In this document: piece after piece, positions 1,768 to 24,909 of the stretch
How positions within the stretch are numbered: the stretch's first letter is position 1
How the letters are laid out: every line of letters begins with the position of its first letter
NCBI GenBank assembly: GCA_027603945.1
Contig: JADIIU010000161.1
Location: 1 to 26,006 of the forward strand
Direction of reading: 5' to 3'
Length of the DNA: 26,006 bases
Source of the DNA: Terramyces sp. JEL0728
Taxonomy: Eukaryota; Chytridiomycota; Chytridiomycetes; Rhizophydiales; Terramycetaceae
The notes under the pieces: model-generated
Database searches by the model: none
The model's input: the letters and a program-made list of their open reading frames with translations, nothing else
Told to the model about the DNA's origin: nothing
Translations under genes and position numbers: made by a program

Positions 1768-2667
1768 ATGGAAGACCTTGAATATGAGAAAACAACAGCT
1801 CTAGATGCAGAAACGTTTAAAAAGATACAGCCGAAAGAATACCTCCGCAGGTTCTTGCAACAAAATACAAGACCGGACGGGAGAGCAATTAATGAATCGA
1901 GACTAGTTAATGTTCACAAAAGTAATTCCCAGCTAATACAGACCCAATATCAAAATGCATTGGTTCCGCTACGGTAAAATCAGGAAACAGCATGGCTATT
2001 TGTGGAATAAAGGCGGAAATCACAGCTCCAGATCCACTGTATCCAAAGCAGGGATACTTTATTCCCAACTTGGATCTGCCGGCAATGTGCAATCCTAGAT
2101 TTAAACCTGGACCTCCACAACAATCAACGCAGTCGCTATCAGAGCAGATTAATCAATTATTTGAAAACTGTAATATCTTCAACAAGGAGCAATTAGCGAT
2201 TGAATACGGTGAGGTTTGTTGGATATTATATGCGTAACCCGATTTAACGTTAGGGATATCGTTTTTTTAAACTATGATGGATCAGCCATGGATATTGCTT
2301 TACTTGCGCTGTTTTCTGCGCTGAAATCTAGTAGATCGTACTTAACAGCAGTGAATCTCCCGTTAGTTGAGTATATTGATGGACAAGTGAAGCAAATTGA
2401 TGGATACAGAAAGTTGGAAATTGACAGAGTAATTTCTTCAACCACCTTCTGCATTTTTGACGAGTAACTGATTCTAACTCTAGTGTCATCCTGCTGGATC
2501 CTACTGACGATGAAGAATTGGAGGGCTCAGTATTAAATGTGTTTGTCGATCACGAAGGATTATTTTGCGGAATCCATGCTTTCGACGGCCATCTCTCAAA
2601 AGAAAAGTTGGACGGATGTTTATTGTCTGCTCAGCAAAGGGCAACCAAACTAATAAAGCTTATTTAA
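1768..2667 (+). CDS. RRP43: Exosome complex subunit EXOSC8/RRP43
   Basis: This is a non-catalytic RNase PH-like subunit of the RNA exosome ring, which processes and degrades RNA 3'-5' in nucleus and cytoplasm. Exons are 1768-1921, 1942-2233, 2254-2463 and 2484-2667, coding for 279 aa, the usual size of the family. Joining them across three introns of exactly 20 nt gives an uninterrupted match to human EXOSC8: PKEYLRRFLQQNTRPDGR near the N-terminus (family: PLEYYRRFLKENCRPDGR), GSATVKSGNSMAICGIKAE, GYFIPNLDLPAMCNPRF, YADIVFLNYDG across intron 2, and ILLDPTDDEE after intron 3. The introns start GTAATT, GTAACC and GTAACT and carry CTAAT, TTAAC and CTAAC before the closing AG. HID1 follows 143 bp downstream on the same strand. 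Confidence 0.93.
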
Positions 2668-2810
2668 CCAGTCGCAAAGAATTTGAATACCGACTGCAAA
2701 GATTCAGCTGCAGAACGGCTGGAATGAAATCAACCCTTTCATTTCTCTGTCTCTTGGTGGTTATCACGAACAAACGCTGAATTTGATTTTCTCAATTTTC
2801 AAAGCTTTCA

Positions 2811-5195
2811 ATGGGTGCATCTGAAAGTAAAATAGCTTTTCGAAAACAAGTGTTCAACCTGTCTGAACCAGATATCGAGCAACTGGAATTATTTTACACT
2901 CTTCCAGAAACCACAGAGGATATTTTCAACTTGTGTGCACATAAAGATATTAGAATTGCGATAGAAAAGCAACCACACAATGTCACTTTGTTGATTGAAA
3001 CTTTGATTGAACGATTGGAGAAATATATCAAGGATCCGGTGGAAACAAAGGAGGCTTCCAACTGTATTCGTCTTTTGACCAGGATCCTTCCATTTATTTT
3101 TGAAGCAAGTAACAATCTGGAAAACAACATGTTTTGGTCAGTAAAAGGTGATACTTGTTTAGGTACGAAATGCTTAATCAAGGAACCAAATTGTCTGTGA
3201 TTGTATCGCAGTTGCTCTTTTTACGCGGATTTACTATTCCATCTTCAAAACAAAACACTCCGCATGTTCAATATATCATATGGCAAAAGGGTATCGGGGC
3301 TAGCACTGCACCTCCAGCCATCAAGGAAGAAATTGTGAACCGAATCGAAGTAATGCGGTTGCTGTTGACCCTGTTATCACGTACCATGTATAGTACCGCT
3401 GGAGAATTAGCAAATATTGAGAATTTATGGGCAAGAGAGTTTTGCATTCGATTAGAAAGAAAGGCGGCGCTAGCCATGCTGTGTTCATTTACAAATACGA
3501 TTACAAACTATGATCCGATTGGCTGGGCAACGCTACCGTACAATCACGTAAATGCTAGATAACAATAGTTGCTGTTTGGGGATATCACAGAATTATTAGT
3601 CTCGCAATGTGCACATTCACTCTCAGTGTTATTCAATTACAAGTCAAACCTGAAAAGGAACCCGAGTGTTGAATCACTTGAAGAGTATTTCTTATTGACA
3701 CTAGCGATGCAAGGTTTTCTCTTTCTCAAGACAACTTGTCTACTGCCACATCGTCTGTTGCTCCACTGGCGAATACTTTTACTTTTTATTTCTCAAAAAT
3801 ATACAAGCCTGAAGATTTGGAGTTCTTGGTTGTTGGGATCGCCCGACTGCTAAAGAATCCAATTGATGTAGTTTATGTTAATGATAGGCTTCCAAATCCT
3901 ATCTGCCTGGATCAGCCAAAGCCATCAAACTAACAACGGATTTGCTAGTTTTAGTTTGGCACTATATGGACACCAACAAAAAGTTTTTAGCTCATCTCTG
4001 TCAATCGCCAAATGTGCTCGTTTTATTACAGGCGATTATGGTTGAAAGCTTGGACGCGAGAACTGTCCCTAGTAAACTAGGGATATTGCGTCTAAACTGT
4101 TTTATTTTGCATCGGTTATCACAAGATAGGAATTTCGGAATACGGTTGAATGAAAACTGCGATGTTTCCATCCTTGGTCAATACACAAAGCTGTTTCCAA
4201 TTTACTCCAGCGGATGTTGGGGCGACCTGCTGTACTTGTACATCTATGTGTTGCTATCTACAAATACAACTGCCCGACAAACCATATTGCATTTGCAAGA
4301 GTCCTACTTGTCTTCTATGGCAAACGTTTCTCATCTGGTAACAAAATTCACCTCGGCGACAGCAAACAAATTGTTCAATCTATTCCAAGTGTATTCATCG
4401 CCAAGATACTTGCTGTCCCGAGAACGTAATTACACTAAATTGTTTTACTTGCTCTACATTATCGATACAATTTTGCAGTACCAATATGCTGGGAATTCGC
4501 AAATTGTATACACCTTTGTTAGAAATAGAGAAAAGATTCTATCATTACGCGATATGGACTTTGAAAAGAGTGTTGAGCAGGTGCAAAAGCTTAATGCTCA
4601 ATCGTCAGAGGGTAATTTGGAGATTTCTTCCAGTACAGATGCAATAGACGGCGAATCGCCTAAATCAGTGACAACCTTGGCGGCCCAAGCAAAAGAAAAA
4701 GGTGCTGAAAGTCCAGTAAAGGAAGACAGACTGGTTTCAGATAAACTGCAGGGCAAGAAGCCAATTTCACCCTATGAATCATCGAACGGATTCACCCCGA
4801 CATTTGAATGGGTAACAGCTATTTAACCTAGTATACCGAGTGGAAAACTCGGATGCCAATCCAAGTGCTATCCACTCTTGTTGAAACGCTATCGCCCCAA
4901 GTGGAAGCATACTGCCTCCAACATGATCTAAGTGTTGATACAAAAGTCCACGCGTATCTTCAAAGTCAAACTATGGTTGGTGTTCTACCTCAACCACATC
5001 CGATTATCACCCACTCGTTCATTTATTCTGATGCTATCCATTCGTGGGTCACCGCCTTTCTATGGGTAGCTGTTGCTAATATAGGGATCTGTGTATATGA
5101 AAAGCCTGGAACCTCAGGACCAAGAAGCGGCCAAACTATGTCCTTCAATATGGGCTGGGACTAAAGTGCAACTATTTGGAGTATCCGTTCAATAA
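2811..5195 (+). CDS. HID1: HID1 family Golgi/secretory trafficking protein
   Basis: HID1 proteins are N-myristoylated peripheral membrane proteins of the trans-Golgi that act in secretory-vesicle sorting. Seven exons (2811-3162, 3183-3547, 3569-3684, 3705-3867, 3888-4811, 4832-5065, 5085-5195) give 754 aa, close to human HID1. Visible family landmarks are the N-terminal MGASESKIAFRK with Gly-2 for myristoylation, NCIRLLTRILPFIFE, GYGIPYNHL-like TLPYNHLLFGD across intron 2, FLVVGIARLLKNP, TTDLLVLVWH, SATANKLFNLFQVYSS, PTFEW, and a C-terminal KVQLFGV. The introns are 20, 21, 20, 20, 20 and 19 nt. A low-complexity, acidic and serine-rich linker lies roughly at residues 565-650, as in homologues. 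The stop TAA (5193-5195) lies inside AATAAA, and the convergent ECI gene stops 8 bp away. Confidence 0.92.
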
Positions 5196-6187: not shown

Positions 6188-7039
6188 ATGTGGACCATCG
6201 ACTTCTCCAACAGATTAGATATCTCAACAGTATTATTAGTTCTCGTGCTCTTCAGTGCGGCTTTCTATGGAATTGGTGCGATATACGAATATTACGATGG
6301 TGAGAAAGCACACGCCTTGGAATTGAAAGTTGTCCTAGAAAATATCGAACGAATGAGAAAGCTGCAATCAAATGTGTCTGACTCCAATGCATTGCAGGGT
6401 GTTCATAATGACCAGCAAAATACAAAAACACAGTCTCATCACAAGGGAAGCCCAAAATGTGCCAACAAAGATAGTGGCCAAAAAGAATTGCCAAACGAAC
6501 AAAGAATATTCAATAAAGAGCCAAACTGGCCAGATAAGGTAGATTCGTTATCGGAAGAGATATTGTTTGACGGGCAAAAAAAGAACAATGAACTGCCATC
6601 ACACTCTCCATCAAATTCCTCTGCAATGAGCTCACAAAGTAAATTCGACAGAAATATCAGTCCTTTTGAAGATGCAAATGCTCCACCAAAGATTATTACA
6701 AATATGAACAGATCCGGTTTATCGCCTGTATCTGCGTCTGATTCGCCAAGAAATGACAAAGTCAAATCAATATTAAAAAGAAAAACGCCAATCACAAGTG
6801 AAAATGTTCTCGACCATCTTCCGCCAGTACTAGCGCTTCCATTCAGAACCGTGGAGCTTGTGTTTGATAAAGCAACTGATGCATCTGCCTTTATAATCCA
6901 AAAAACTGTTATAAGCCCAGTTATCAATATCACATCTATATTCAGGACAAAACGCAAACATGCCACCTGCAAGCCAAATTTAAACCGCAGGGCTAGTTTC
7001 AGTGATGGCCAACCATACCCTAAAATTCTTTCAAAATAA
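6188..7039 (+). CDS. Membrane-anchored protein of unknown function
   Basis: I do not recognise this 283-aa protein. Residues about 12-30 (STVLLVLVLFSAAFYGIGAI) form one hydrophobic segment near the N-terminus, a signal anchor. A charged, coil-prone stretch (ALELKVVLENIERMRKLQSN) follows, then a long low-complexity S/N/K/P-rich middle (70-200). The C-terminal part (about 205-283) is better ordered: LPPVLALPFRTVELVFDKATD, then a basic tail with NRRASFSDG, which resembles a basophilic kinase site (RRxS). It is a single exon. The stop TAA (7037-7039) sits inside AATAAA (7035-7040), and the next gene starts 22 bp later on the same strand. Confidence 0.7.
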   Translation: MWTIDFSNRLDISTVLLVLVLFSAAFYGIGAIYEYYDGEKAHALELKVVLENIERMRKLQSNVSDSNALQGVHNDQQNTKTQSHHKGSPKCANKDSGQKELPNEQRIFNKEPNWPDKVDSLSEEILFDGQKKNNELPSHSPSNSSAMSSQSKFDRNISPFEDANAPPKIITNMNRSGLSPVSASDSPRNDKVKSILKRKTPITSENVLDHLPPVLALPFRTVELVFDKATDASAFIIQKTVISPVINITSIFRTKRKHATCKPNLNRRASFSDGQPYPKILSK

Positions 7040-7514: not shown

Positions 7515-7520
7515 TTTATT
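7515..7520 (-). terminator. Poly(A) signal overlapping the coiled-coil gene stop
   Basis: On the minus strand the sequence reads GAA TAA AC, so the stop TAA (7518-7516) lies inside AATAAA (7520-7515). AATAAA of the convergent gene is at 7494-7499 on the plus strand, so the two 3' UTRs interleave. Confidence 0.55.
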
Positions 7521-9962
7521 CGTCTATATTTGGAGCTCCGTCTTCCTCTTCATTATCATTAATATTCACATTTGAAACATGCTGGTTGGCAAACTTTGCA
7601 GAAATCTGAGATTTAACTTCCCAGTTGAATTTGTATGCGGTAACTGCTACCATGTAAGCAGCAATAGAAGTCAGTCTATCTATTGTCACCTTATCTTCGC
7701 CATATTCTTTGGCTGCCAACGTATACCTTATGATTATTTCTTTTGTTGAAGCAGGTGGGAGAATTTTAGTCATTGCTACGGAAAAGTCCTTTGCGCTTAG
7801 TGAACCAGTTAGCTGCGAATCAAACTTGTCCAGAGCTTTCGAAAACTAGATTAGAAATGCTATTACGAAATCAAAATTTGGCTCTTTTCGATTGCCAACC
7901 AAGTATAACAGATGCTCCATAACTCCTTCTCTTGTAATTTTGTTTTTTGTGAATGAAATAAATTCAAGGCACATTTTTTCGTAGGATTCAGGCTATGTTA
8001 AACTGCCAATACTCTCCTGTCAGGATAAATTATCTTGATTTTCTCTTCGTAGACCGACATGTTGAATTCTCTGTTGTCTGAATAGAACAGATCCTTCACC
8101 AAGTACACGTATTTCCACACTTCCTCCTCTTTGCCAGACAAATGTTGGCAAAATATGGAAACAACCTAAATTAGAATAGTAGTACAGGATCTGATTTCTC
8201 CATGGATTGCAATGCAGTAAAGAAATCGTGAATTGCTTTCATACTAAATTGTTGGAACATGTATCGATCTTGAAAGCCTTTATAAAAGCTGTCGGTAAAT
8301 CTGTCAATATCTGGATGATTATCTGTTGTATCAAAATCAAGGGTCTCTGTTTTCCATCTTTGGTCGTAAATTTCTTGAATAATTCCAAGTACTTTTGAGA
8401 TTTGCATTGCCCTATTCGATGCTGGTTTTGTTCCGCTTTTCTTGTAATAGAAATCTTTCCATATTCTATAAAAGTTGGCAGACACCTACCATTAACACGA
8501 ATTACGAGCGGATCTTCGTCCTCTGTAATCAACATATGTTTCGACAGCGCTTCTTGTTCGGTTACTTTCAATGTCGATTTATACAAAAGCGATGGCTGGC
8601 TGAACTTTACATGACTGGTGTTTGCAGGCAAGGTGACATTTCTCAATTTCAATGGACAATGTGGACACAACAGTACTCTTACCCCGCATTTTTCACAAAA
8701 TTCGCAAGAGTCTAAAACTTCATACTCTTTGCCATTGCTTGAAGATTCGCACTTTGCAATTAGTAAATTGTTACAATTAAAGAATACTTTCTGGCTGCAA
8801 AATCTGCATATGGATCGATAGCTGGTAACTTTGCCATCATTTCATTTTTCTTTTCTTGCAGCTGCAATCCACCAACATGGCTCTTTAACAATTCCAATTC
8901 ATCTAAATACCTCAAAGACCTAATTTTGAACTGGTTAATGTGTTCGTTTAACTGGATTAATAGACTACTACTTCTGCATCGATGGATTTGATTGATTCTG
9001 AATATTCACCGCCTGATATCCCGAGCATGATTTCTCTTTTCCGATTTACTTGACTAAGATTCAAGTCAAAATCGTCCAACAGGTAATCCATCATTTCAGA
9101 AAACTGTTTTTCAATCTTTTTTGACTGCACAATATCGTATTTCATCATCCCATTCGCATCCATCTTTATATCTTTTAGCTTCATCGACTCTATGCTATTC
9201 TTGTCACTTTTTTCTACATAAGTATTAGGCACCTTTCTTGGCCTCGTTCCCGGAAGCTTTGAAAACAGTTAGCTTTTCTATAACTGATTGGGCTTGGGCT
9301 TTTGCAGCTTGTAAATCACTGATTTCCTTAAGATGCTGTTCTTCGGCTGCTGAAAATGAAGCTCGAAGCGCTTCCTGTTCTTTTTTTTGGACTACCACCT
9401 CATTCTTGTACTCTTGTATCTGCCCGTTTAATTCCGCTACGTCATGCTCAAAATCAGTAATCTTTTGTTTCAGACTCATATTGGTTCTGTACAGTATTTC
9501 CAAGTCATTTTCACGGAATTTTAGCTTTTGATTCAATGCTTCTATTGCTTCGCGATGGTTTGCGCTTTCTTCATCCCTTCCATTAGAAAATACTGAACCT
9601 AATCTTGTTATATCTTTCCATCAATACAAAGTATGGAACATTTTCATAGAACGGCTCTGTATCGCTCGAAGTTACAATTGATGAATATACTGATTTTCCA
9701 AGTTCTTTGATTACCATCGCCATTATCGTATGAAACGGTCCAGTTTGTGCTGAAATTGACTCCAACAACTTGAAGCATATTTTTAATCTTTCAGAAGATG
9801 GAGAGTTTGGATAATTGTCAAACACCTCTTGGAGTTGGACGTGATACACAAGGGCTGGGTAAGAATACGGATACCTTGAGACTTTGGGTTGATTTTAGTT
9901 GGGTCCGGTCTGCTATTTATTGCCATTCCAGCAAGGATATCTGCATTTTGATTAGCTCCCAT
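7516..9962 (-). CDS. Coiled-coil and zinc-binding protein, possibly flagellar
   Basis: Ten exons on the minus strand: 9962-9875, 9854-9599, 9576-9233, 9213-8972, 8951-8830, 8803-8506, 8485-8186, 8165-8013, 7992-7867 and 7845-7516. They give 752 aa. An N-terminal helical domain includes HVQLQEVFDNYPNSPSSERL. A long coiled coil follows (about 115-340). Then comes a cysteine cluster (about 352-400) with CSQKVFFNC, CEFCEKCG and CPHC, which looks like a double zinc ribbon. The C-terminal helical half includes NFYRIWKDFYYKKSG and ends in an acidic tail NDNEEEDG. Nine introns are inferred, eight of them 19-22 nt. The ninth (8804-8829, 26 nt) is the weakest. Donors at 9598 (GTTCAG) and 9232 (GTGCCT) are atypical. 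I cannot name the family. A flagellar role is suggested only by its architecture and by the nearby DNAI2 and PACRG genes. Confidence 0.7.
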
Positions 9963-11454: not shown

Positions 11455-13370
11455 ATGGAAATCGTATACGTCTATCAAAAAAAGAGAAAGGAGTTTGGAA
11501 AGCAAGCTATGCTTTCAGACAAACTTGCACAGATAAACCTCGATATTCCTCCAGACCCAGCATATATTAAAAATTACACTGAACGAAACCCAACACACAC
11601 TGAAGCACAATGCTGCCCAGATAAATCTGAACATGAAGTACCAAAGCATTAACTGCAGGTTAACACGGAAAGCTATGTCGTCAGCAACAGAGGGATTTTA
11701 CATACACAAGGAGGATGGCCAAAGGATGTTGACGCAACCGATGTTGAACACACAATTAGATTTAGAAAGAAGATTGAAAAGGATGAAGAATATATGAGAG
11801 TAATTAAAAACCTTGGGGATGTAATTATAGCTTAACGAAAGACTATGGAACACACTATTAAACAAAATAACGCTATCGACATTTATGAAGAATATTTTCA
11901 AGAAACGCCAGATACAATGTCATCTGAAGCCCCATCTGCAAAATCGTTGAATGTTTACCGGTAAAACTTTATCTAACCAAGCGACCCAAATACAATCAAG
12001 CGAGCTGCCACATATTTATCTTGGTATCCAGAAGAAGGCCACCGTATAGCAGTTGCGTATTCCGTATTGCAATTCCAAGGCATGCCAGCAAACATGTCGC
12101 TTGACTCGTACATTTGGGATGTTGAGAATCCCAATGCTCCTGAACAAACTTTGACTCCGGTTTCTCCATTGGTTTGCATAAAGTACAACCCAAAAGATCC
12201 CCACATCCTAGTTGGTGGATCATATAACGGCTTGCTATGTAATATTTGCTAATGAATAGCGTATTGGGATACAAGAAAAGGTGCGTTCCCAGTTGATTCA
12301 TCTCCGCTGGAAAAAAGTCATAGAGATCCAGTTTATAATGTAGCGTGGGTTCAATCAAAGTCTGGCTGCGAGTTTTTCTCTGTTTCGACTGATGGTCAAG
12401 CATTATGGTGGGATATCAGAAAACTCAGCGAACCAACTGAATCAATGTTGATTGATCCAGAAAAGAATGGAAACATTGTCGGAGGAACCGTCCTTGATTT
12501 TGAAACTACTATGGTAATATTAGTTAATTTAGCCAACTAAATTTATGATTGGCGGCGAAAATGGATCAATTTTCATGTGCAACAAGAAGGCAAAAACCCC
12601 AGGAGACAAAATTACTCATGTCTATCCGGGCCACCATGGTCCTGTTTACGCATTGCAAGTAAGTAGCCGTTTACAATAGCGCAATCCATTCTTCTTGAAG
12701 AACTTCTTGACTGTTGGTGACTGGAAAGCCCAGATTTGGTCTGAAGATATCCGTTCTCCAATAATGTCCACAAAATACAGCACGAGCTACTTGACCGACG
12801 GCTGCTGGAGCGCTACACGTCCATCGGTATTCTTTACATCAAAAATGGATGGAAGTATCGACATCTGGGATTACATGTTCAAGCAAGTTGAACCCTCCTA
12901 TACGGTTCAAGTAATTTTTTGCCAACCGCTAGGTATGCAACTCACCACTCCACTCAATAAAGGCCCAAGAGCATGGCAAATTATTGGCAGCATCAGCAAG
13001 GGATGGATCAATGACACTATTCGAATTATCTGAAGGTTTAACCAAGTTGCAAAATAATGAGAAAAAGATCTTCTCTGAGGTATATCTGCCACTAATGTAG
13101 ATGCTTGAACGAGAAGCAAAGAGAGAAAAGACTTTGGAAAGCGCTGTAAGGGAGAAGAGGATCAAAGCAGCCCAAAAACGTCCAAATTCTGCATTCATGC
13201 CAGCAGGTCCAGCCTTGGAAGAATTATTAAAGCAAGCCGATGCCGACTTTTTCAATTTTATTGATGATGGAAGCGGTAAAATATCAGAGGAAGCGACTGC
13301 TAGGGCAAGGGAATACGATACAAAGGAAACAAAAGAGATTCTACAAACCCAAGAGCAAGAACAAACTTGA
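11455..13370 (+). CDS. DNAI2: Axonemal outer-arm dynein intermediate chain 2
   Basis: WD-repeat intermediate chain that holds the outer dynein arm on flagellar doublet microtubules. Nine exons (11455-11637, 11659-11820, 11842-11960, 11982-12238, 12260-12513, 12533-12658, 12680-12910, 12933-13079, 13101-13370) give 582 aa, near the human length of about 600. The match to DNAI2 is continuous: [157 protein letters not shown] and a C-terminal helix [13 protein letters not shown]. Eight introns of 19-22 nt all begin GTA. AATAAA lies at 13381-13386, 10 nt after the stop TGA. The gene implies a motile flagellum with outer arms. Confidence 0.95.
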
Positions 13371-13885
13371 TATTATTTCTAATAAATTAGTGTTTTTGTT
13401 TTATTGCGATCCCAAATATATTATATCTGGCTATAGATCGTAAAACTGCATTAACCAAGATTTTCTCTTGGGTTTCTGTCGCTGATACTTTAATTGCGGG
13501 CTACCAACAAATCAATCCGATAAACTGCATTTGTTGCTGGTTATCGTCAGGCGAACTCACGACCAATTAAGGAATAAACCCAAATATGTATGTAAATAAG
13601 TTACCTGAGCCGGCGACGGTAGGAAATCCTAATAAATCAAAGTCAAAGTATACCCATGCAGAAATCTTCTGGATGGCTTCTTGCCCTTTCAAATTGTGAA
13701 TCGGAAAATACACTGGATTCGGCGGTAAATACTGCAGTTAGTCCGGTTGGGTTTCCTGCACTTTCTCCCGCTGGACTCTGCCAAAGAATCATGCACTATT
13801 AAACCCACTATCAGTTTATTCCATGTTGAGGACCATACGCGTCCAATTAAGTTACTATAGTAAACATAAATAGAAATTCCGTAGA
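13371..13885. other. 515-bp region, possible small minus-strand gene
   Basis: No product is recognised. On the minus strand several segments read like protein: LPPNPVYFPIHNLKGQEAIQK, followed in frame by ISAWVYFDFDLLGFPTVAGSG (about 13730-13610), and, in another frame, SPDDNQQQMQFIGLICC (about 13555-13505). The first is preceded by GGACTAACTGCAG, a good local branch and acceptor. The donors do not fit: the required introns would be 24 and 30 nt, and no convincing first exon with ATG was found. On the plus strand the last 200 bp form the ABCC promoter. Confidence 0.3.
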
Positions 13886-16800
13886 ATGGAACTTCAGGAT
13901 TTAAATAATATGAGGAAAATGAAACGGAACTCGTCCAGTCAGTCAATGAAAATATATCCAGATGGAGAACTGAAAGACATTCCAGTTAAACCTCTGCATG
14001 TTTCCAATCCTTCAGAGTTACTATACAAGGACGAAGAAAGGGATTCTTTTCCAGCCTTCCTTCCAAGCGATACACCTCAATTTCCAAAAGAACTCCCAAC
14101 ACCAATTTTCCCAAATGAGCCAGAATACCCGCGAAAAGGCTCTGACCCTAGCAAACCAGATAGCGGAAGGAAATATAGCGACCAAGAATCCTCTTCTAAA
14201 CTGGCAACTACTTCGCGGGATGGACTGTCTTTTGATAGGAAACTTTATCGATCAAGGAGCTCATTCAATATTATGGAGAAAGTGTCGTTCTCTTTCATGA
14301 ATGAAATAATGATTGACGGAAAGAATCGAGATATACTTATTTCGCAATACCCTCCAATCGAACAAGCAGATAATTCGCAGCTGTTGGGGAAGGAGATTCT
14401 GTCAAAATGGTACGCAGAAGTAGAGGCAAGAGGAAATTCGGCAAAGCTTGGTAGAGTACTGGTAATGTCCAAGTAACCTTAGCGCAAAACCTTTGGATTT
14501 CAGTTTATGCTATCAGGATTCGCGTACTTTGTAGAGACAATTCTCAAAGTCAGCGAATCCTATGTTTTTGGCTTGCTGTTGCACTGGTTCCAAAACTTTG
14601 ATGCTGAATCTCTAAATACTGGGTTGATTTACGCCGGAATCCTGTCTGCATTAGTTTTAATCCACTCTGTGCTGAATCAGTACAAATTTTATTCAGTAAG
14701 TTATTTTTCATAGTAGGCTACTCGAATTGGAATGCAAGTGAGGGTTGCGTTAGTTTCAGCTATTTTCGCAAAATGCATGCGTCTGCCCATTGCAGGTGCC
14801 TATTCATCAGCTCAAATATTGAGCCTGATTAGCAATGATGTTCAAAAATTCGAAGATGCCTCTGGATTCCTTCATTTCTTATGGCTCGGACCTATTGAAG
14901 CCTGTATTATTACGTACTTTGTGTATACGCAGATTGGAGCAGCGGCATTTGCTGCAATTATTGCATTGTTAATTTTGATTCCTGTTCAAGCAACATTCGG
15001 CTCAACTTTCGCCAATATTAGAAAGAAAACCAACGTGTTTAGAGACGATAGGATCAAGACACTTTCTGATATGATTACAGGAATGCTTGTTGTAAAGGCT
15101 CGTTTCATCTAACAGTAGCTCTATGCTTGGGAAAAACCATTTTGTGAAAAAATTGATTCAATTAGACAAAAAGAAATACTGAAAATCCGAAAGGCTTCGG
15201 TACTAAAAGCTGTGAATGAAGCCTTATTCTTCTCTTCGTCATGTACTACTCTGTTAACCCAGCATTTATTTCGCTTTCTGCATTTATCGTATTCAAGCTG
15301 CTTGGCGGAACTTTGGATCCAGCAAAAGTAAGTCCATAATAACTGGGTAGGTGTTTGTAACCGTAACGTATTTGCAGACTGTGCGAATGACTATGACGAA
15401 TCTTTTTTCAAAAGGGTACCAGTTTAGTTCAGAATGTAAAATAGCGCTGCAGAGAATTGAAGCACTATTCAAACTGAAGGAAGTAAATCTAAATCCAGTT
15501 ACAGATGTGGTTGACGAAGCAGTAGCTTCCTTGAACGATCCGAAAGTAAGCATTATAATGAAAGATGCTTGGTTTTCGTGGAAATTTAACCAAGGAAAGG
15601 ACATGCAAACCAACGATGTTGTATTGAAAAACTTTAATATGCGGATTCACAAAGGAGAACTAGTTGGGGGTATATGTCTTTAACAGTAGTATGCGGACCG
15701 GTTGGCAGTGGAAAAAGCTCTTTCCTTAACGCAATCTTAGGAGAACTACAATGTGTACAAGGCAAACTTGGCGTCCGATCAAAAAACATAGCGTACGTGT
15801 CTCAAAACCCATGGCTGCTTGCTGGGACAATAAGGAATAACATTCTTTTTGGCAAGTCGTACAAAGAAGATTGGTTTAAAGAGGTTGTAAAAGCTTGTTC
15901 CCTGGATTCAGATTTTGAGCAATTCCCTGATAAAGAAAACACTGTCATTGGCGAACGTGGTCTTGAGCTTAGTGGCGGTCAAAGAGCACGAATATCGCTG
16001 GCAAGAGCTGTTTACTCTGACGCAGACATATATCTTTTGGATGATCCACTGGCAGCAGTAGATCCAAAGGTTGGCAAACATTTGTTCAGATACTGTATAA
16101 GCGGTGTGTTAAAAAAGAAGGTAATGAAATGCTAAATGGCAGTCTGTAGTGTTGGTAACGCATTTAATACAGTATATTCAGCAATGCGATACAGTGGTGC
16201 TATTGGAAGGGGGGAAAATGACAGCTTCAGGGAATTATGCAAAAATCTTGGGAGTCAATACTTCTAAATTTGCCTCGTCCTTGCGCAAACTTAGTTCTTC
16301 TACCTCCGCGGAAAACATTCAGGCATTGGCCAACTCAAAAATGGTAAAATTATCGTCAATTGCCTCATTAAATAGCCTTGCAAATGGGGAAAAGACGACA
16401 TCGGCTGATCCTTTTGTAATGCCAGATCCCACTGACTTTACAGACTCTCAGGAATTCCGAAATTCCATTGCCAAGCGTAAAAATTCAGTCAAAAACAGCA
16501 GAGAAGATTTGGGAATCATGATCAAAAGTGAAGAATCCGTTGCGCAAGGTTCAATGTCCATTCGGTCTTATTGGGAATATTTTAGAGCGGGGTGTTCTAT
16601 TTCGGGGATTCTGCTATTATTTTTTGCTCTAGTTCTTGGCCAATTTTCTCAGATCGCTACTGATTGGTGGCTATCAAATTGGTCTGCACTTTCGGCCTCT
16701 CAGCAAAACGACAAGTACCTCCATTTAAGTGTCTATGCAGCACTTGGCGCCTTTACAATTTTGATTGCAATAACTAGAGCGGTCTGTTTCTTCCTTATCT

Positions 16801-18417
16801 GCCTTTCCTCATCTGAGGCGATGTTCAAAACAATGACAGAGCGGGTTTTTCATGCTCCTATTAATTTCTTCCAGAGTAATCCCCAAGGGCGTATCATGAA
16901 GTAATTTTCCCTTACACTAGTCGATTCACCAAAGATATTAGTTTGACAGACGAGAGCTTACCACAAACGTTCTTTGACCTTGTACAGAGGTCTTTCATGA
17001 TATTGGGGACATTAACCATTTCTGCTATTGTTGTTCCTTATGTATTGATAGTCATCCCCTTCTTGCTCGTTATATTTTTGTACTTTAGGAAAAGCTACAT
17101 AGGTTCTGCCAGGCAGATGAAAAGACTGGATGCCATTACAAGATCTCCAATGTAAATTTGCTTAATTGTAGATTCTCGTTTTTTACTACTTCAATTGACG
17201 GAAAGGCAGTCATCAGAGCTTATCGAATGAGAGAAAAATTCGAAACGGAAGTGAGCAAACTTCAAAACGACAACACCAGAGTATATTTTTCCTTTTCATG
17301 CGCTGGAAGATGGCTTGGAATTCGACTGGACTTGCTCGCTGCGGTTTTCTTTGCTGCGATTGTATTTTTCTGTGTGTCCCTTAACGGTGCTCTGGGATTC
17401 TCTTCTGCTGCAATGGGACTTTTGATCAGCTATATCTTGCAACTTATTGGTTTATTGCAGTGGACTGTTCGTCAAAGTGGTGAAGTAGAGAACTTGATGG
17501 TGTCGACTGAAAGGATTTTGGAGTATATGCAACTTCCGCAAGAAAGAGTCCAAAAAGATATTGCCGTACCGGAAAACTGGCCAACAAATGGACATATTGT
17601 ACTTGAAGATTTGTCGATGCGCTACTCAAATTCAGCTGGATTGGTTCTCAAAAACTTCAACTACGAAATTCCTGGCGGGAAAAAGGTGGGCATAGTTGGG
17701 CGAACTGGGGCAGGAAAGAGCTCGTTTATTAACGCATTGTTTAGGTTGAATGAACCTTTAAGCCCTGGCTCTATTATTATTGACAATGTCAGCACAAGCG
17801 AAATGAACCTGCAGACTTTAAGATCTCGAATAGCTATTATACCGCAGGAGCCGTTTTGCTTTAAAGGCAGCGTTAGGTTCAATATTGACCCATTGAGTAA
17901 ATTTTCCGACCAAGAGATTTGGGATACGTTGGGAATGGTGGAGCTACGGGAAGTCGTTAAAGAGTTAAAAGGACAACTAGACCATGAAATTTCAGAAAAT
18001 GGAGGCAACCTTTCTGTTGGAGAACGGCAACTTATCTGCCTGGCCCGCGCAATTCTAAAGAAATCAAAACTAATTGTGATGGACGAAGCGACATCGTCGA
18101 TTGACGTTACAACTGACCAAATCATTCACGAAATCGTCAGTGAAGGAGAAGGAGGCACATTTGCCTCTTCAACTGTCCTAACAATTGCGCACAGATTGCA
18201 AACGATTATTGATTACGATATTATACTTTTCCTGGACAAAGGAGAGCTTGTCGAAGCTGGTAATTCAAATTTAACTTTAGGCTCCCCATTTGAATTGATA
18301 ACAAAGGACCCAGGAGATCCAGAGGCAAGATTTGCAAAGCTAGTCCATGAGTTGGACAACGAAACACGGCAGACATTAATCGAAGGGGTGCTGCAGAAAA
18401 TTAATCGCAAACAATAA
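13886..18417 (+). CDS. ABC transporter, subfamily C (MRP), short type
   Basis: ATP-driven exporter or channel-like transporter of the ABCC/MRP family. Ten exons (13886-14461, 14483-14695, 14717-15097, 15119-15242, 15263-15327, 15351-15669, 15690-16120, 16143-16900, 16921-17151, 17172-18417) give 1447 aa. Order: a 190-aa hydrophilic Ser/Pro-rich N-terminus with no TMD0, TMD1, NBD1, a linker, TMD2, NBD2. NBD1 has GPVGSGKS (about 562), LSGGQRARISLARA (about 653) and LLDDPLAAVD, where Asp replaces the catalytic Glu as is usual in ABCC NBD1. NBD2 has GRTGAGKS (about 1210), LSVGERQLICLARAI (about 1312) and MDEATSSID. VVKLYAWEKPF and IMNRFTKDISLTDESLP are MRP hallmarks and form only after splicing. 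Nine introns of 20-23 nt, one of them GC-AG. The stop lies inside AATAAA (18413-18418). Confidence 0.93.
15098..15118 (+). other. GC-AG intron of 21 nt in the ABCC gene
   Basis: Removing 15098-15118, which begins GCTCG and ends CTAACAGTAG, restores the near-invariant MRP motif VVKLYAWE. It has a perfect CTAAC branch motif and the family-typical length. The only GT alternative (GTAAAG at 15092, 27 nt) would delete two conserved residues. Confidence 0.75.
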
Positions 18418-18458
18418 ACACTATCTATTTGCATGAATATTAATATGAACCAAAACAA

Positions 18459-18464
18459 TTTATT
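18459..18464 (-). terminator. Poly(A) signal of PACRG
   Basis: TTTATT on the plus strand reads AATAAA on the minus strand, about 26 nt beyond the PACRG stop (18492-18490). It lies in the 72-bp gap between the convergent ABCC and PACRG genes. Confidence 0.5.
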
Positions 18465-18489
18465 TTCAGACTTATATATTTAAACAATT

Positions 18490-19330
18490 TCAAACGCGAG
18501 ACAGTACTGATTCGTATGTAGGAACCATATACTTGATGTTTATGAAAGCATCTTCACCGCCAGTCAACTCAAATTTCTCCAAAGTCTCTTGAATTAAATC
18601 TCCAATGTTTTCACGTTTTTGTTGAGAATAGTAAATGCCATCACCAAGATTTACTTTGTTAGCAAGCAGGTACCATTTTTGTTTTTAAAAAGATTAAAAA
18701 TTGGAAGGATTTGGCGATAATAAGGGACCAAAGCTTCTCCAACCATATCTGCGGATTCTACTAAATGCTGCAATACTTTGAGGGTAGTCGTGATGACATG
18801 GATATTACGTGTATTGAGGGCTTCTAAAGTAAGACAATGGTTACTCTTGATTGGGATAATAAGCTGCGGGACCACAGGCAATATCTTGCTGCCGCCTTTG
18901 TCCAAGAGGTCGTGAATACCCTGCCTTGCCAAGAAAGCGTAAGGCTCTTCAGTTTCACAAAGCCCAGAAAAGAATAGCGGTAGGTAGTGATGGTAGTCTA
19001 GCTTTTCAATATCTACCTGGCGTTAAGCGGCCATTACCTTCCAGTTAATCTTGTTTCCTTTTGCATCGTGATTTACAGAGATTGGAAAGTCTCCTCTATC
19101 ATATAACTTTCTAAAACCTAATAATTATGCTGCATCTACTAGTTTTTTCTTTGCTATCTCCGAAAATATTATCCTCTACTGTTAGACGTGATTTTACTTG
19201 CTACCGGCGCTGTTTTTCTTGGAGCAAACGCTCCCGCTTTAGGAGGATGGGATCCAGGGGCTGCAAAATAGCCTCCTGCTCCTGCTATTGTCAACTTTTC
19301 GCTGTTGTTATGTAACACTTTGTGGGACAT
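18490..19330 (-). CDS. PACRG: Parkin co-regulated gene product, axonemal inner-junction protein
   Basis: PACRG joins the A and B tubules of flagellar doublet microtubules at the inner junction. Six exons (19330-19198, 19175-19140, 19117-19038, 19016-18845, 18823-18674, 18653-18490) give 244 aa. The match to human PACRG runs from [15 protein letters not shown] through [106 protein letters not shown] to [12 protein letters not shown] at the end. Introns are 22, 22, 21, 21 and 20 nt. The 21-nt intron at 18824-18844 has no in-frame stop, so an unspliced reading adds seven foreign residues. The N-terminus is variable in the family. I chose the ATG at 19330; upstream in-frame ATGs at 19354 and 19393 exist. 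Rab5 starts 153 bp away in the divergent direction. Confidence 0.93.
18824..18844 (-). other. Stop-free in-frame 21-nt intron in PACRG
   Basis: On the minus strand this begins GTAACC and ends CTTACTTTAG. It is 21 nt with no stop in the coding frame, so ORF callers read straight through it. Removing it turns [14 protein letters not shown] into PIKKALN, which lines up with human PIKNALN without a gap. Confidence 0.8.
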
Positions 19331-19482
19331 TGTAGCAAAATTAGAAAAAAGCATAATGACATGCTTGCGGTATACGTCATCCAAAATCGCCATTATACGA
19401 GCGCTATAATGCAGAAGCCAGGCGTACAGGTGAAAATTCTAATGCAAGTTTGAGTTTGTGTTCCCGCCACTTTTTCCAAAAC

Positions 19483-20216
19483 ATGTCGAATCGACCATCT
19501 TCAAGAGCTTCCACAGAACAAAACGGGCCTAGCTCCGCGGGAGGAGCTGCAACCATCAAACCAGTACAGGTTAAACTAGTGTTGCTTGGAGAAGCAGCGG
19601 TGGGAAAATCTTCTATCGTTTTACGATTTGTAAATGGCGAGTTCCAAGACAATAAGGAACCAACTATTGGAGCAGCTTTTCTCACACAAAAATGTAAACT
19701 TGATGACAAAATAATCAAGTTTGAAATCTGGGATACAGCCGGCCAAGAAAGATTCCACTCTCTTGCTCCTATGTATTACCGCAATGCTCAAGCCGCTGTT
19801 GTAGTGTACGACATTACAAAATCAGTAAGGATAGTGTTTAACCGAAGGCTTCCTTGGAGAAAGCTAAAGCTTGGGTAAAGGAGCTTCAAAGACAAGCAAA
19901 TCCAAATATTGTTATTGCCCTTGTCGGAAACAAGCTGGATTTACAGGTCAACCGAGAAGTGTCTTCAGAAGAAGCCGAAGAATATGCAAAAGAGTCTGGA
20001 CTATTATTCATGGAAGCTTCTGCCAAAACAGGAGAATTGGTTGGCGAAATTTTCACTGAAATTGGTACTTGAAATTAAACCGTAGCAAAGAAAATCCCTC
20101 TAGAAAACCTGGCTCAAAGCAGATCTCGAACTGGACTGAACAACCAAGGTGCAAACGGAAGAGTAGACTTGAATACTGGACCAACAGAAGCACAGCCAGG
20201 CAATTGCGCCTGTTAA
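19483..20216 (+). CDS. RAB5: Rab5/Ypt51-type small GTPase
   Basis: Early-endosome Rab GTPase. Three exons (19483-19824, 19848-20064, 20086-20216) give 229 aa. The P-loop GEAAVGKSS is at residues 36-44. The switch I region [11 protein letters not shown] is typical of Rab5. [18 protein letters not shown] covers switch II, and NKLD and EASAKT form the guanine-binding motifs. The C-terminus is CAC after a hydrophilic tail, a double-Cys prenylation signal. Introns are 23 nt (GTAAGG...) and 21 nt (GTACTT...), both with TTTAAC or TTAAAC near the AG. An upstream in-frame ATG at 19450 would add 11 residues, but the 19483 start matches family length better. No AATAAA was seen; GGATAAATAA downstream may serve. 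The convergent P450 stop is 47 bp away. Confidence 0.93.
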
Positions 20217-20263: not shown

Positions 20264-21854
20264 TTATAAAGCTTTGGGGATGAGCTTAACTGAAACCTTT
20301 TCCGTAGGTTTAGACAAGCCCAACAGCATACTTGTCAACTGATAATCTGGCTTGGCAAACTCCAAGTCATACTTGCACAAAATGATAGCAGAAAGCATCT
20401 TGATTTGCAGACTGGCAAATCGCATTCCAGTACATACGTGTTTTCCTGACGTTATTCCAGTTATTACCTAAGCCAAACCCGGAAAACATATGTGGAGCTT
20501 TTCCACCGCCAACGCATTTGCCATTTTCATCCAAGAATCTGCTTGGCGTAAATTCATATGGATCTGGATTGATATGGTCATCAAAGTGTACCAACCCTTG
20601 CATATTCAAAACAAGCGAGTCATTTGGAATAATTCGGTTTTCATCGACTGCAATTTCTTTGGTGGATTTTCTAAAGGTCCAACCAGTAGATCCTATGCGT
20701 ACGGTTTCCAAAAGACAAGCATCCAACAAGTCCAAATTTTCAACTAGTTCAGATGGAATACTATCGCACTTGCTTCCAGGTTCAATCAAATCCTTTTCTT
20801 TAAGGAACTGAACTAACGGTTGCAATGATTCCTCGACCCTTTTCTTGATTTCTGGATGGGCATTCAAATGAATCAGCAAGGTAACGGTGGCAATGTACTG
20901 ATTGAGTACAGCAGCATCGACTAGCGCAGCAGTAGTGGATACAGCATTACTGATTTGGATTGACTGAGTTGCAGGATCGTAAGCCTCGCGAATAATACAT
21001 GAAACCAAATCTTGCCCATCTCTATCTTTCTTGGTAGTCATCGCATCCAACTCTTCTTTGTGAGCAGTGACATAGTTGATGATAACTTCCTCCAATGTAG
21101 ATGTGAATTTATGGTAGATGCGTTCCCTTTCATTTACAAGAGATGGCAAGTTCGGGAAAGCCATGTGCCAAGGGTTATTGTTCATCATTGATTCAATATC
21201 AGCTTCTCGGACACCTTCGATCAATCTCTGTTGTTGTTCTGGTGTAGCGCAATATTCGGTGAATGTTCTGACAGCCATAGTCGACACGGTGTTGTAGTTG
21301 AATTCGAGCATGTTGTCAATGGTAGTTTGTTTGGCAAGCTTTTCAGTGATGGTTGGTAGCAAGATTCTTCCGGCCCATTCAGACAGTTTGCTTGGCTTGA
21401 GCAGTCTAGTGAGAACCGAAACGGATTCGATCACCTTGACTGGTTTCTCTTTAAACACCTTTGATCTGATATTTCCCAGCAACCATTCGTAGCCCTTTTC
21501 CAAACTAAGCCCAGAATTGGAATAGAAAAGTTTGTTTCCATCAGCATTCTTCAAAATATATCCGCTAAAGAGCGGGAAACAAGTCAACTTGACGAGAGTT
21601 TCATCCATATACTGTGGTTCCAACAGCTTTTTGGCCAATGCGGTTTTTAGATCTGGATGTTTTCCCATATTGTACATCACAGACCAGAGATTCAGAGTTG
21701 GAATAGAGTTTGATCTTTTGGTTTTAAGAACCACGAATAATCCAACCAGTACAGCACCAAGCGCGGCAGTTACCTTGTGTTCTGCTGTCAATTGTAGCAG
21801 TTCCTTGATTCCATGTTTGGCGTTTTGGGCGATATTGTTCCAGATCTCTTCCAT
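20264..21854 (-). CDS. Cytochrome P450, CYP7/CYP8-like
   Basis: Membrane-bound heme-thiolate protein of 522 aa in two exons (21854-20468 and 20445-20264), joined across a 22-nt intron that falls inside the heme motif. An N-terminal anchor lies near residues 28-45 (VTAALGAVLVGLFVVLK). The ExxR pair is in LETVR. The heme-binding loop FSGFGLGKHVCTGMRFA, with Cys about 467, appears only after splicing. The I-helix lacks the usual A-G-x-D/E-T-T: AAVLNQYIATVTLLIHLNAHPE stands in its place, with Asn where the catalytic Thr normally is, as in CYP7 and CYP8 enzymes (sterol 7-alpha-hydroxylases, prostacyclin synthase). Substrate is unknown, and a non-monooxygenase reaction is possible. Single ATG at 21854. 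Confidence 0.88.
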
Positions 21855-22032
21855 GATTTTTCAAAAAAGTTGGCTGGTGGCTGTGAAATTAGACGGTAAT
21901 TTAGCATAAAATCGATTAGTAACAAGTACGCAGGGTTCCTATCTGGATATTGGAAACCCATCGAATTGTACGAAGCGGTTCTCGATTGATGTCTTCCGCA
22001 TGTTTCCACCGGCACTTTGCTTGTGTTTATTA

Positions 22033-22346: not shown

Positions 22347-22411
22347 ATTCGGACATTCTCCTGTATTTTCGGACAAGAACTGTGGCGTAGCAAAGAGATG
22401 TATGACGCGAA

Positions 22412-22418
22412 TGACTCA
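22412..22418 (+). promoter_or_regulatory. Candidate GCN4-type site upstream of bZIP gene 1
   Basis: GAATGACTCACC contains ATGACTCA, the GCN4 recognition core plus flank. It lies about 150 bp before the open frame of a gene encoding a GCN4-like bZIP protein, so autoregulation is plausible. It also overlaps the upstream ATGs at 22402 and 22411. Confidence 0.4.
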
Positions 22419-22467
22419 CCACGAAAATAAAAGGAGAGAAAAAACCACTTTTGCACTTTCCATCTGG

Positions 22468-22493
22468 AGTTTCTTTCATTCCCAAAAGAAACT
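22468..22493 (+). other. Leader hairpin of bZIP gene 1
   Basis: AGTTTCTTT (22468-22476) pairs perfectly with AAAGAAACT (22485-22493), a 9-bp stem with the 8-nt loop CATTCCCA. A near-identical stem occurs at the start of bZIP gene 2. Confidence 0.55.
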
Positions 22494-22564
22494 TTTAATT
22501 AGTTGCAAGAATCTGAATATCTTTCGACTAAGAACTTAAGCGCCGTACTACGCTCCCTCCTTAA

Positions 22565-23206
22565 CAACTAGCAGAACTCTCTTCCAAGGAAGGCCAAAAA
22601 TTAACACGTATCACTCTCAAGATAGCCAATTTGTCTCCTCAAGCAAAATTAGAATGTCAGAACTTGCCTTTTCCAACTCCACCTACACACATTCAGGATT
22701 CGTACAACGTCCCACCAGACATCCCGACAGATAATCATCTATTGTCGTTTGAAGACTTTTTTGCAGATCCATTTACAACAAACACCTATTCACTTGACGA
22801 TTTCCTTAATGAAAACCCATTAACTGCCGACAATATATTCGCCTTCTCTCCTTCCACCCTTGTAGAATCTCCTTTGCAGTCCATCAGCACTCCAGCTCCG
22901 TCCACTGTAAATACTCCCCTACAAAAGCCTAGAAAGAGAAAACTCGCAGCAGTACAAAAGAAACGCAAAGAACAAATCCTCAATCATGAGCAATTACTTG
23001 CCGATATCGAGGAGAAAAGAAAAAGAAACACTGAAAGCGCTCGCAGATCGCGCGAAAGAAAAACTTTGAGAGTGTCAGAATTAGAACGCCAACTTGCAGC
23101 GTCAGAAAATCAAAGAAAGATAATCCAGCAGCAGCTAAATCAATTGATTGCTGAAAAACAATCTTGGCAATTGAAGAGGGCAGTGTCCTCTGCCAAACTA
23201 GTCTAA
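22565..23206 (+). CDS. GCN4-like bZIP transcription factor 1, start codon unclear
   Basis: Nuclear DNA-binding activator of the GCN4/CPC-1 type. The frame is open from 22565. The protein-like part has a proline-rich start (NLPFPTPPTH), acidic/aromatic activation motifs (LLSFEDFFADPF, YSLDDFLNENP), basic clusters (KPRKRKLAAVQKKRK), then the basic region EKRKRNTESARRSRERKTLR (GCN4: KRARNTEAARRSRARKLQR). A leucine zipper from SELERQLAASE follows. No ATG occurs in this frame anywhere in the gene, so the first codon is unresolved: a near-cognate start such as TTG at 22631, or splicing from an upstream exon. A 70-nt intron (22502-22571) could join the ATG frame at 22402, but it is far longer than any other here. 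An out-of-frame ATG at 22654 overlaps the coding frame. AATAAA lies at 23229-23234. Confidence 0.75.
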   Translation, partial: QLAELSSKEGQKLTRITLKIANLSPQAKLECQNLPFPTPPTHIQDSYNVPPDIPTDNHLLSFEDFFADPFTTNTYSLDDFLNENPLTADNIFAFSPSTLVESPLQSISTPAPSTVNTPLQKPRKRKLAAVQKKRKEQILNHEQLLADIEEKRKRNTESARRSRERKTLRVSELERQLAASENQRKIIQQQLNQLIAEKQSWQLKRAVSSAKLV

Positions 23207-23331
23207 TTTTATTAATAGGAAATTTAAAAATAAAAAGATTTGATTGAACGCGTCTTTATTGCAAGTTGCACTCCGAACAGCCGCAACTTTGTACCGCATT
23301 TTGTACCGCAGATCAATTAAAAAATCTTTAC

Positions 23332-24909
23332 ATGAGAGATAAATCATCAGGCACGCTCTCAATCAAAAAATCAAATCTCTTGTCAACACCACTATGGATT
23401 ATTCCCGTCGTTTTTCTTTTAATTATATTTACTGGACAAACTGACCTGGTGCTCAAGAAAACAACCCCAGTGCCTTCAACTGAAAACGTCATCCACCACT
23501 TGAAGAATTTGGAAAAGCTAGCCGGGAAACATGATAATTCTCGATCAGTTGCAAATGGACATGCTGCTTCGGTAGACTATGTTGTAGCTGCACTTGCACA
23601 ATTGAACGAAACATTCACTTACCATATCCAGGAAGTTTCAATCAATGTCCAAGTCGATAGCGAACCACCTTTGTTCCTGATTAAAACCTCCAAAACCGGA
23701 AATATCACATTTGAACCAAGAATAGATGTTGCTACTTACCCTGGTTCAGGTTCAGTCATATTGGATAAAGTAGCTGTGAAATTCATCAGTGGTTGTAGTG
23801 TGAATCAAAAATTTCAAAAGGACTGGATTGCTGCTATTGATACATCTCTATCACTCCCGTGCTCTGTCTGTCAAAGACTTATTGAATCAATTGATGCAGG
23901 TGCTAGAGGCGTTGTTTTGTTCAACAAACCTGGTAATACCAAAGGTTACCCTCATGCGCTACCTCCACAACCTGGTCGGTGTGGTAGAGACCCTGAAAAC
24001 CATGCCAAGATTCAAAAGATTGGTGCTGTTCAGTTATCAGACTATGCAGCATTCCAATTCCTGTCACAGTATGCTAGTTACCCTGATACTAAAGCAAGCT
24101 TGACTGTTCAGAGCGTGTACCGCGAATTCATTTCTAAAAACGTGATTGCAGACTCTATTCAAGGCAACCCAGACTCTGTTGTTGTATTTGGATCGCATCT
24201 GGATTCTGTCCCAGCGGGGCCTGGTGTTAATGATGATGGCTCTGGAGCAATGGCTACATTGGAGCTTGCAAACTACTTTCACCAATACCTAGCAAAGAAG
24301 ACAGTTCAAAAATTAAGGTACTCTATGCTTGATGTAGATTTACTTGGTGGACCGGTGAAGAAATCGGATTATTGGGATCTGTTCATTATGTTAACGACTT
24401 GAAACAGCACAATCCCTCTGAATTATCAAATATTGTACTTAATATCGATACAGATATGATAGCTTCACCAAACTATGTAAGAGGGGTTTGGTCAGGAAAC
24501 AACTTGAAAGAACCAGCCTTGTACCAAAAATGCAAGAGTATCCACATGCTATTCAAAGACTACTTTTCGGCAAAAGGTCTCCCAATCGTAGAATTTGAAT
24601 TCAATGGTAGATCTGATTTCCAACCATTTTTGGATGCAGGTATTCCAGCTGGAGGTGTTATCACTGGCGAAGATGAGATTAAGACTGTCGAACAGGCTCA
24701 GCTATTCGGAGGTGTTAGTGGAATGGTACTTGATCGTAAGCTATTGATTAACTGAAGCATGTTATCATCAGGATTGCGATCGCGTTGAAAGTATTCTTGG
24801 TAGTGGAGTAACAATAATGGAACAAAACATGGGGGCTTTGGGGCATGCGTTGGACACTTATGCTTTGGCTGCTGATATCAAACAGTTGCTGTCGCCAATT
24901 GATGAATAA
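23332..24909 (+). CDS. M28 family zinc aminopeptidase, aminopeptidase Y-like
   Basis: Co-catalytic zinc exopeptidase, probably vacuolar or extracytoplasmic. Three exons (23332-24317, 24338-24735, 24758-24909) give 511 aa. A type II signal anchor covers residues about 18-36 (STPLWIIPVVFLLIIFTG). A PA domain insert lies roughly at 110-270, with GARGVVLFNKPG and GAVQLS. Metal ligands and catalytic residues are all present: His in GSHLDSV, Asp in NDDGSG, the Glu pair in WTGEEIGLLGS (formed by splicing), Asp in NIDTDMIASPN, and His in PCYHQDCD (formed by splicing). Introns are 20 and 22 nt. The frame extends upstream to 23266 but has no ATG there, so the start is 23332. The stop TAA lies inside AATAAA (24905-24910). 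Possible N-glycosylation sites are NETF and NITF. Confidence 0.92.

Follow-up and report, generated by a model that had tools for sequence, protein, structure and literature searches.

What are the 19-23 nt segments that interrupt the genes of the window, the 26,006-nt stretch of DNA analyzed here (contig C161 of the chytrid fungus Terramyces sp. JEL0728; Chytridiomycota, Rhizophydiales, Terramycetaceae), and are such segments confined to it? Results from the window and the wider assembly (15.0 Mb, 231 contigs) indicate that ultrashort introns are real, genome-wide, and U2-type by the available signs. Judging from sequence, the segments are very probably ordinary U2-type spliceosomal introns whose geometry has been reduced almost to a minimum. 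A prior reading of the window from its letters alone (the sequence-only reading) had proposed ultrashort spliceosomal introns in a flagellated fungus, which is borne out, the organism being a chytrid with an axonemal dynein gene.

Abundance and length of introns across the genome

Three analyses were made without gene models: a motif scan of 229 kb, a genome-wide layout count, and a two-distance scan of 226 kb (next section). The 229 kb set comprised the window, 200 kb sampled as 10-kb pieces of 20 contigs, and locus L001, which lies inside L020, so that 3 kb were counted twice; Markov sequences served as controls. In this set, GTA..YTAAY..AG occurred at 77, 90, and 51 sites for lengths of 19, 20, and 21 nt, compared with 12, 9, and 9 expected, and was barely raised at 22 nt in this strict scan (15 versus 12). 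No comparable excess of the motif was seen between 24 and 79 nt, where the top counts fell at 43 nt (20 versus 10) and 57 nt (21 versus 12). Donor and acceptor matrices likewise paired in excess at 19, 20, and 21 nt (17, 13, and 9 pairs versus 1, 0, and 1), with no excess at 25-599 nt. Across the 15 Mb genome, the 20-nt layout GTANNNNNNNYTAAYNNTAG matched 1743 times, compared with 77 times for the reversed pattern. Since 27 of 257 introns in sampled gene models fit this layout, the genome is extrapolated to hold roughly 16,000 introns (estimated range 13,000-20,000).

Gene finding recovered the same size class. A finder using codon statistics and GT..AG alone, with all lengths from 12 to 120 nt equally likely, placed 51 of 110 introns at 19-22 nt and scattered the other 59. 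With learned motifs and 15-120 nt allowed, 122 of 173 introns fell at 19-22 nt; we take most of the 51 scattered ones to be noise. An iterated finder (learned motifs, 17-25 nt allowed), applied to 241 kb (the 229 kb set plus loci L022-L025), yielded 257 introns in 98 gene models, with lengths of 17 nt (1), 19 nt (64), 20 nt (102), 21 nt (63), 22 nt (25), 23 nt (1), and 24 nt (1). This set contains at least one gene in two near-identical copies (L023 and L024). The shape was unchanged among the 179 introns of models scoring ≥50 (42, 71, 46, and 18 at 19-22 nt). Intron density was 1.9 per kb of coding sequence, about half the mean of 3.9 per kb given for two chytrids by Lim et al. (PMC8476143). 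Introns thus remain numerous, which points to shortening more than purging, perhaps with some loss.

If the segments were sequencing indels or products of pseudogene decay, they would be frame-breaking errors, and the public gene model of the window contig does miss or read through several of them. Errors, however, would not be expected to carry common donor, branch, and acceptor motifs at fixed spacing, to exceed the control by about 1670 occurrences in a single layout, or to restore conserved proteins when excised, and we give this explanation practically no credence.

Splice signals and their spacing

The typical unit opens with GTA(A/C)TT, directly preceded by AG; a YTRAY branch site follows, and the 5 or 6 nt after its A close with YAG. 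In the 226 kb scan (GTA, YTAAY, next AG), the combinations of 13 or 14 nt before the branch A with 5 or 6 nt after it held 162 sites, compared with 9 in the reversed control, divided among four peak cells (52, 43, 36, and 31). Two neighboring cells were also raised (14 + 4 nt, 11 versus 2; 15 + 5 nt, 9 versus 3), while the remaining cells (8-45 nt before, 3-13 nt after) together held 518 sites versus 1130 in the reversed control, which is richer in background. The two distances were independent in gene-model introns (47, 42, 38, and 38; chi-square p = 0.84). Of the checks named in the sequence-only reading, intron lengths sampled across the genome gave a peak at 19-22 nt, and the branch-site scan gave a near-fixed branch position. 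The donor-branch distance of about 10 nt that it described is slightly too short, as 13-14 nt precede the branch A.

Because the two distances vary independently, total intron length is approximately the sum of two two-valued rulers plus one. In the mechanism that we propose, U1 would hand the donor to U6, after which the U6-donor helix would directly adjoin the U2-branch helix, with hardly any spacer or none. The lariat would have a predicted loop of 14-15 nt, followed by a tail of 5-6 nt. The 3' AG would be chosen so close to the branch that a polypyrimidine tract would not fit in between. Such a geometry suggests a splicing machine that works close to its physical limit.

Among the gene-model introns, 250 of 257 begin with GT and seven with GC; 225 begin with GTA. 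The TTAAY motif resembles the end of the U12 branch site, which would be compatible with introns of the minor (U12-type) spliceosome. The U12 donor consensus, however, is RTATCCTT, whereas the donor table of the 257 introns gives GTAATT, mostly with initial GTA, and the U2 RNA of this genome fits its family consensus. A U12 identity is accordingly very improbable.

In-frame stops were found in 50 of 63 introns of 21 nt, compared with 109 of 192 in the 19, 20, 22, and 23 nt classes (Fisher p = 0.0015). This excess was considered as a sign of selection for nonsense-mediated decay and is not relied on, as the finder detects stop-free 21-nt introns poorly. Stops in so many segments do, however, argue against unspliced segments tolerated through frameshifting or translational bypass. 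Segment length alone would permit bypass, and no support for it was found, while a scan free of gene models shows GT-AG ends with a branch motif at constant distances, the branch-binding stretch of U2 is of consensus type, and U5, U1-C, and U2AF65 are present. We consider bypass scarcely credible.

Introns in the window and protein continuity

The iterated finder placed 41 introns in the window, of which one (6969-6990) was dropped because its parent model seems to fuse two genes. The remaining 40 measure 19 nt (3), 20 nt (17), 21 nt (14), 22 nt (5), and 23 nt (1), and another of 23 nt (15328-15350) was placed by eye. This is nearly the same spectrum as that of the 45 introns reported previously (3, 18, 15, 7, and 2 at 19-23 nt), which carried no coordinates, so that the two sets were not matched one to one. 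Eight spliced models were run against Pfam; RNase PH, Hid1, Ras, M28 peptidase, P450, and WD-repeat families were matched, and two models had no match. The genes and their introns are as follows:

1768..2667, plus strand: RNase PH-type (exosome-like) gene, spliced protein matching RNase_PH and RNase_PH_C; introns (finder model) 1922-1941 (20 nt), 2234-2253 (20), 2331-2351 (21), 2464-2483 (20)
2811..5195, plus strand: Hid1/dymeclin-like gene (Pfam Hid1, E = 2.9e-140); introns (finder model) 3163-3182 (20), 3548-3568 (21), 3685-3704 (20), 3868-3887 (20), 4812-4831 (20), 5066-5084 (19)
7516..9962, minus strand: gene(s) without Pfam match, two adjoining models, possibly one gene; introns (frame and motif only) 9855-9874 (20), 9577-9598 (22), 9214-9232 (19), 8952-8971 (20), 8486-8505 (20), 8166-8185 (20), 7993-8012 (20), 7846-7866 (21)
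11455..13370, plus strand: axonemal dynein intermediate chain 2 (IC2) gene (PDB chain 9fqr_I6, E = 1.3e-209); introns (finder model and homologue junctions) 11638-11658 (21), 11821-11841 (21), 11961-11981 (21), 12239-12259 (21), 12514-12532 (19), 12659-12679 (21), 12911-12932 (22), 13080-13100 (21)
13946..18417, plus strand: ABC transporter gene, predicted by the finder as two models (ABC_tran match for a 279-residue piece); introns (finder model unless marked) 14462-14482 (21), 14696-14716 (21), 15098-15118 (21, GC donor), 15243-15262 (20), 15328-15350 (23, by eye), 15670-15689 (20), 16121-16142 (22), 16901-16920 (20), 17152-17171 (20), 18260-18280 (21)
19483..20216, plus strand: Ras-family (Rab-like) GTPase gene (Pfam Ras, E = 3.1e-61); introns 19825-19847 (23), 20065-20085 (21)
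20264..21854, minus strand: cytochrome P450 gene (finder model and Pfam); intron 20446-20467 (22)
23332..24909, plus strand: M28 peptidase gene (finder model and Pfam); introns 24318-24337 (20), 24736-24757 (22)

Along its entire length, the spliced WD-repeat protein matches axonemal dynein IC2. Aligned with eight homologues (seven chytrids and Allomyces) out of 120 listed, it is continuous at all eight intron sites, except that Globomyces and Kappamyces are gapped beside three of them; no full-length dynein IC2 of Terramyces or Boothiomyces was among the 120 matches listed. Elsewhere in the genome, a cytochrome c peroxidase model (contig C170) is identical over 271 residues to a public Terramyces sp. 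JEL0728 protein, and hence its intervening segments are removed in the public annotation too. The public Hid1 model on the window contig (HDV01_002077) has 551 residues, compared with 754 in the re-derived model. It splices the 20-nt intron at 3163-3182, replaces 3548-3887 with one 340-nt intron that skips two exons, and reads through the intron at 4812 to an early end in VTAI. The exon sequence that it omits has counterparts in proteins of Globomyces, Kappamyces, and Polyrhizophydium. The public Hid1 model of Boothiomyces breaks similarly at the same place, ending in VIAILI, and may thus have a homologous tiny intron at that position. Spliced lengths divisible by three, offered earlier as an argument against chance, are weak evidence, as the models were chosen to keep frame; the real evidence is protein continuity, motif geometry, and the placement of indels.

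Indels between duplicated segments

Two 3.1 kb segments (L023 on contig C199 and L024 on contig C111) are 98.9% identical and differ by five indels. Predicted introns (121 bp) contain two of these, each of a single base, and the other three are intergenic; the 2190 bp of exon have none. Both intronic indels change intron length between 21 and 20 nt. Of 20 mismatches, 15 are exonic and none intronic, so intron bases are not simply fast-evolving, although only 121 bp were compared. The pair may represent a duplication or two uncollapsed haplotypes.

A probable tandem gene family was also seen on L019 (1472-6340), where three neighboring models with similar starts (Y.KDDA.G) have one 20-nt intron each.

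Spliceosome components

The genome encodes a U2 RNA (140 bits) with the consensus GUGUAGUAUC branch-binding stretch, and a U5 RNA (86 bits) with a consensus loop. Near the U5 RNA gene are two tRNA genes (L001 1901-1982 and 2330-2411) of equal score and with the same aligned letters. U1-C is encoded on the minus strand of L025 (~1140-1730 on that strand) by a gene in which a 10-nt exon is flanked by 21- and 22-nt introns, and the first 57 residues of its product match solved U1-C. The identification rests on this structural match, since a zf-U1 family search also matched one control, E. coli. Intronless genes resembling histones H3 and H4 are also located on L025. A U2AF65 model, itself interrupted four times by introns of 19-20 nt, matches solved pieces of U2AF65 over residues 110-306 and 339-434; a search of the unspliced genome scored 252 bits, below the family cut-off of 310.

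Several points weigh against the reading of the segments as compacted U2-type introns. The iterated finder accepts only GT/GC and AG ends and lengths of 17-25 nt, and its branch score favors 5-6 nt; these constraints partly build ends, lengths, and branch spacing into its 257 introns. Within that set, the donor +5 position is G in only 16%, such that pairing with canonical U1 would be weak; 46 introns lack a YTRA[CTA] motif at 4-7 nt from the end, and branch points are inferred from the motif only. The public Hid1 model differs from the re-derived one at five of six introns. Lastly, model and pattern searches of the genome found neither U1 RNA, where no positive control matched and an assembly gap is possible, nor U6 RNA, where the searches had no positive control. 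Rfam gave no U1 or U6 in L027-L031, and nothing at gathering score in the window and L002-L012 (136 kb). Matches to U6 at 27 bits are a repeated coding segment, and the U1 and U6 pattern matches that were viewed were judged coding or unrelated. Three further pattern matches, assessed from the matched letters only, were not taken for U1 or U6 either, and one more pattern search had no match. The survey of spliceosome genes suggested in the sequence-only reading gave U2, U5, U1-C, and U2AF65 as present, with U1 and U6 RNA not found by searches without a positive control.

These observations bear on a further explanation, in which the introns are spliceosomal but their donors are recognized in an altered way: U1 RNA, the ACAGAGA region of U6, or both would have diverged in step with the donor, leaving U1 a minor part in the choice of these introns. 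The scarcity of G at +5 is consistent with this, as is the lack of any U1-model match or any pattern match judged to be U1 or U6. A U1-C gene with a conserved N-terminal region, on the other hand, makes a U1 particle likely, and absence from searches lacking a positive control is weak evidence. Changed recognition is thus unlikely, although it deserves more weight than errors, bypass, or U12 splicing.

Longer introns and head-to-tail strings

A finder allowing longer lengths predicted 26 introns of >25 nt, of which three were accepted (45, 51, and 56 nt). The 45-nt intron is needed in the gene for ribosomal protein S3 and the 56-nt intron (predicted hairpin, -10.1 kcal/mol) in that for PME-1, both junctions being gapless against solved homologues. 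The 51-nt intron is needed in a trypsin-like peptidase gene, where the family model spans the junction end to end. A predicted 41-nt intron was really 23 nt when examined by eye (VLLCEM restored), a predicted 52-nt intron was the window's 22-nt intron, and the remaining predictions were not accepted, some seeming to join neighboring genes. Hence, introns described earlier as "uniformly" ultrashort are nearly all 19-22 nt, with a few of 45-56 nt outside the window. Survival of these few implies that small size is strongly favored and not absolutely required. At L010 7986-8034 (49 nt), 22- and 21-nt introns around a possible 6-nt exon and one 49-nt intron are equally possible.

Predicted introns separated by zero-length exons occurred at four loci, one of which (L016) is a weak model. 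The other three are supported:

L021 5777-5819: string of 21 + 22 nt (43 nt), cytochrome c peroxidase gene (LAW|HASGT)
L008 4717-4758: string of 21 + 21 nt (42 nt), ABC transporter gene
L018 1340-1402: string of 20 + 21 + 22 nt (63 nt), HORMA-domain gene

All three junctions are continuous against relatives or solved homologues, and the strings are exact head-to-tail arrays of complete introns with an AG-GT zero-length exon between units. Shuffled string interiors split into units 7, 2, and 0 times per 20,000. The 45, 51, and 56 nt introns cannot be split into units, although a lenient threshold made 109 of 20,000 shuffled versions of the 45-nt intron splittable. The peroxidase string is the weakest of the three, its lowest unit score (-0.25) ranking near the 5th percentile among single introns. 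When motifs were scanned for adjoining units, two pairs were found versus none reversed, both within the HORMA-gene string.

From this arrangement, we infer that string units may be removed stepwise. Ratchet-point recursive splicing acts on long animal introns; the strings resemble it in their AG-GT zero-length exons, but their units measure 20-22 nt, not kilobases. Nor are they stwintrons, in which one intron is nested inside another's splice site, as the units in all three strings lie head to tail and none is nested. More tentatively, and with some doubt, intron size may be quantized by the two independent rulers (13-14 and 5-6 nt), many longer intervening sequences being strings of 20-22 nt introns with zero-length exons between, removed one by one. 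If true, quantized size and strings would constitute the smallest-scale recursive splicing known, perhaps combined with altered donor recognition by U1 and U6.

Comparison with known systems and implications

Genomes with ultrashort introns are known among ciliates, mikrocytids, and nucleomorphs. At nearly always 19-22 nt, Terramyces introns rank with the shortest on record. The statement in the sequence-only reading that such introns are known only in some ciliates and chlorarachniophyte nucleomorphs omits Mikrocytos mackini, with introns of 16-17 nt (PMC10245619). Like those of Mikrocytos, Terramyces introns are numerous, uniform, and conserved in sequence; Mikrocytos, however, is a reduced obligate parasite with a highly reduced spliceosome, whereas Terramyces keeps flagellar genes, U2AF65, and U1-C. 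Chlorarachniophyte nucleomorph introns (18-21 nt, >800 in ~300 genes; PMC10245619) share nearly the same length range, a narrow distribution, and several introns per gene, but belong to a relic endosymbiont nucleus, in contrast to a 15 Mb fungal nuclear genome with the thousands of introns extrapolated above. Heterotrich ciliates have introns of 15-16 nt; in one of them, Stentor coeruleus, the branch A is mostly at position 10 or 11, with a 5-nt tail (PMC9505925). A near-fixed branch and a short tail are common to Stentor and Terramyces, the branch A of the latter being nucleotide 14 or 15 and its tail measuring 5-6 nt. The Terramyces loop is 3-5 nt longer, its branch consensus is clear whereas that of Stentor is weak, and the lineages are unrelated. 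Introns of Paramecium and Nyctotherus are around 25 bp.

Within fungi, Cryptococcus neoformans likewise has many short introns, but at a mean of 63 nt (PMC8476143) they are three times longer than those of Terramyces. The available passages of a survey of 644 fungal genomes name no fungus near 20 nt (PMC8476143), and microsporidia, kin of fungi, have few, relatively short introns (PMC10245619). Among the matches listed in a search of mainly openly available literature, there was no report of ~20 nt introns in chytrids or other fungi; one Cryptococcus paper uses the word ultrashort (PMC11913375), and the accessible part of another paper holds nothing on the question (PMC12075339). Terramyces is the first fungal case of such introns that we could find in the literature searched.

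These results place minimal-size introns in a fungus, in the order Rhizophydiales. Batrachochytrium, the best-known member of this order, has ordinary introns. Intron shrinkage could thus be dated and compared among close relatives, a task for which ciliates, mikrocytids, and nucleomorphs are less convenient. Terramyces also offers a clean measure of minimal donor-branch-acceptor spacing, and it is a natural setting in which to test how 20 nt can accommodate U1, U2, U6, and U2AF. Moreover, gene finders can miss such introns, as in the public Hid1 model, and chytrid protein sets and completeness scores may be damaged as a result. In the metagenome-assembled genome C06 of Rhizophydium megarrhizum, BUSCO completeness is 76.9% for the genome and 40.5% for predicted proteins (PMC13391722). 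Its authors name partial and fragmented genes (PMC13391722); ultrashort introns could be one cause of this gap.

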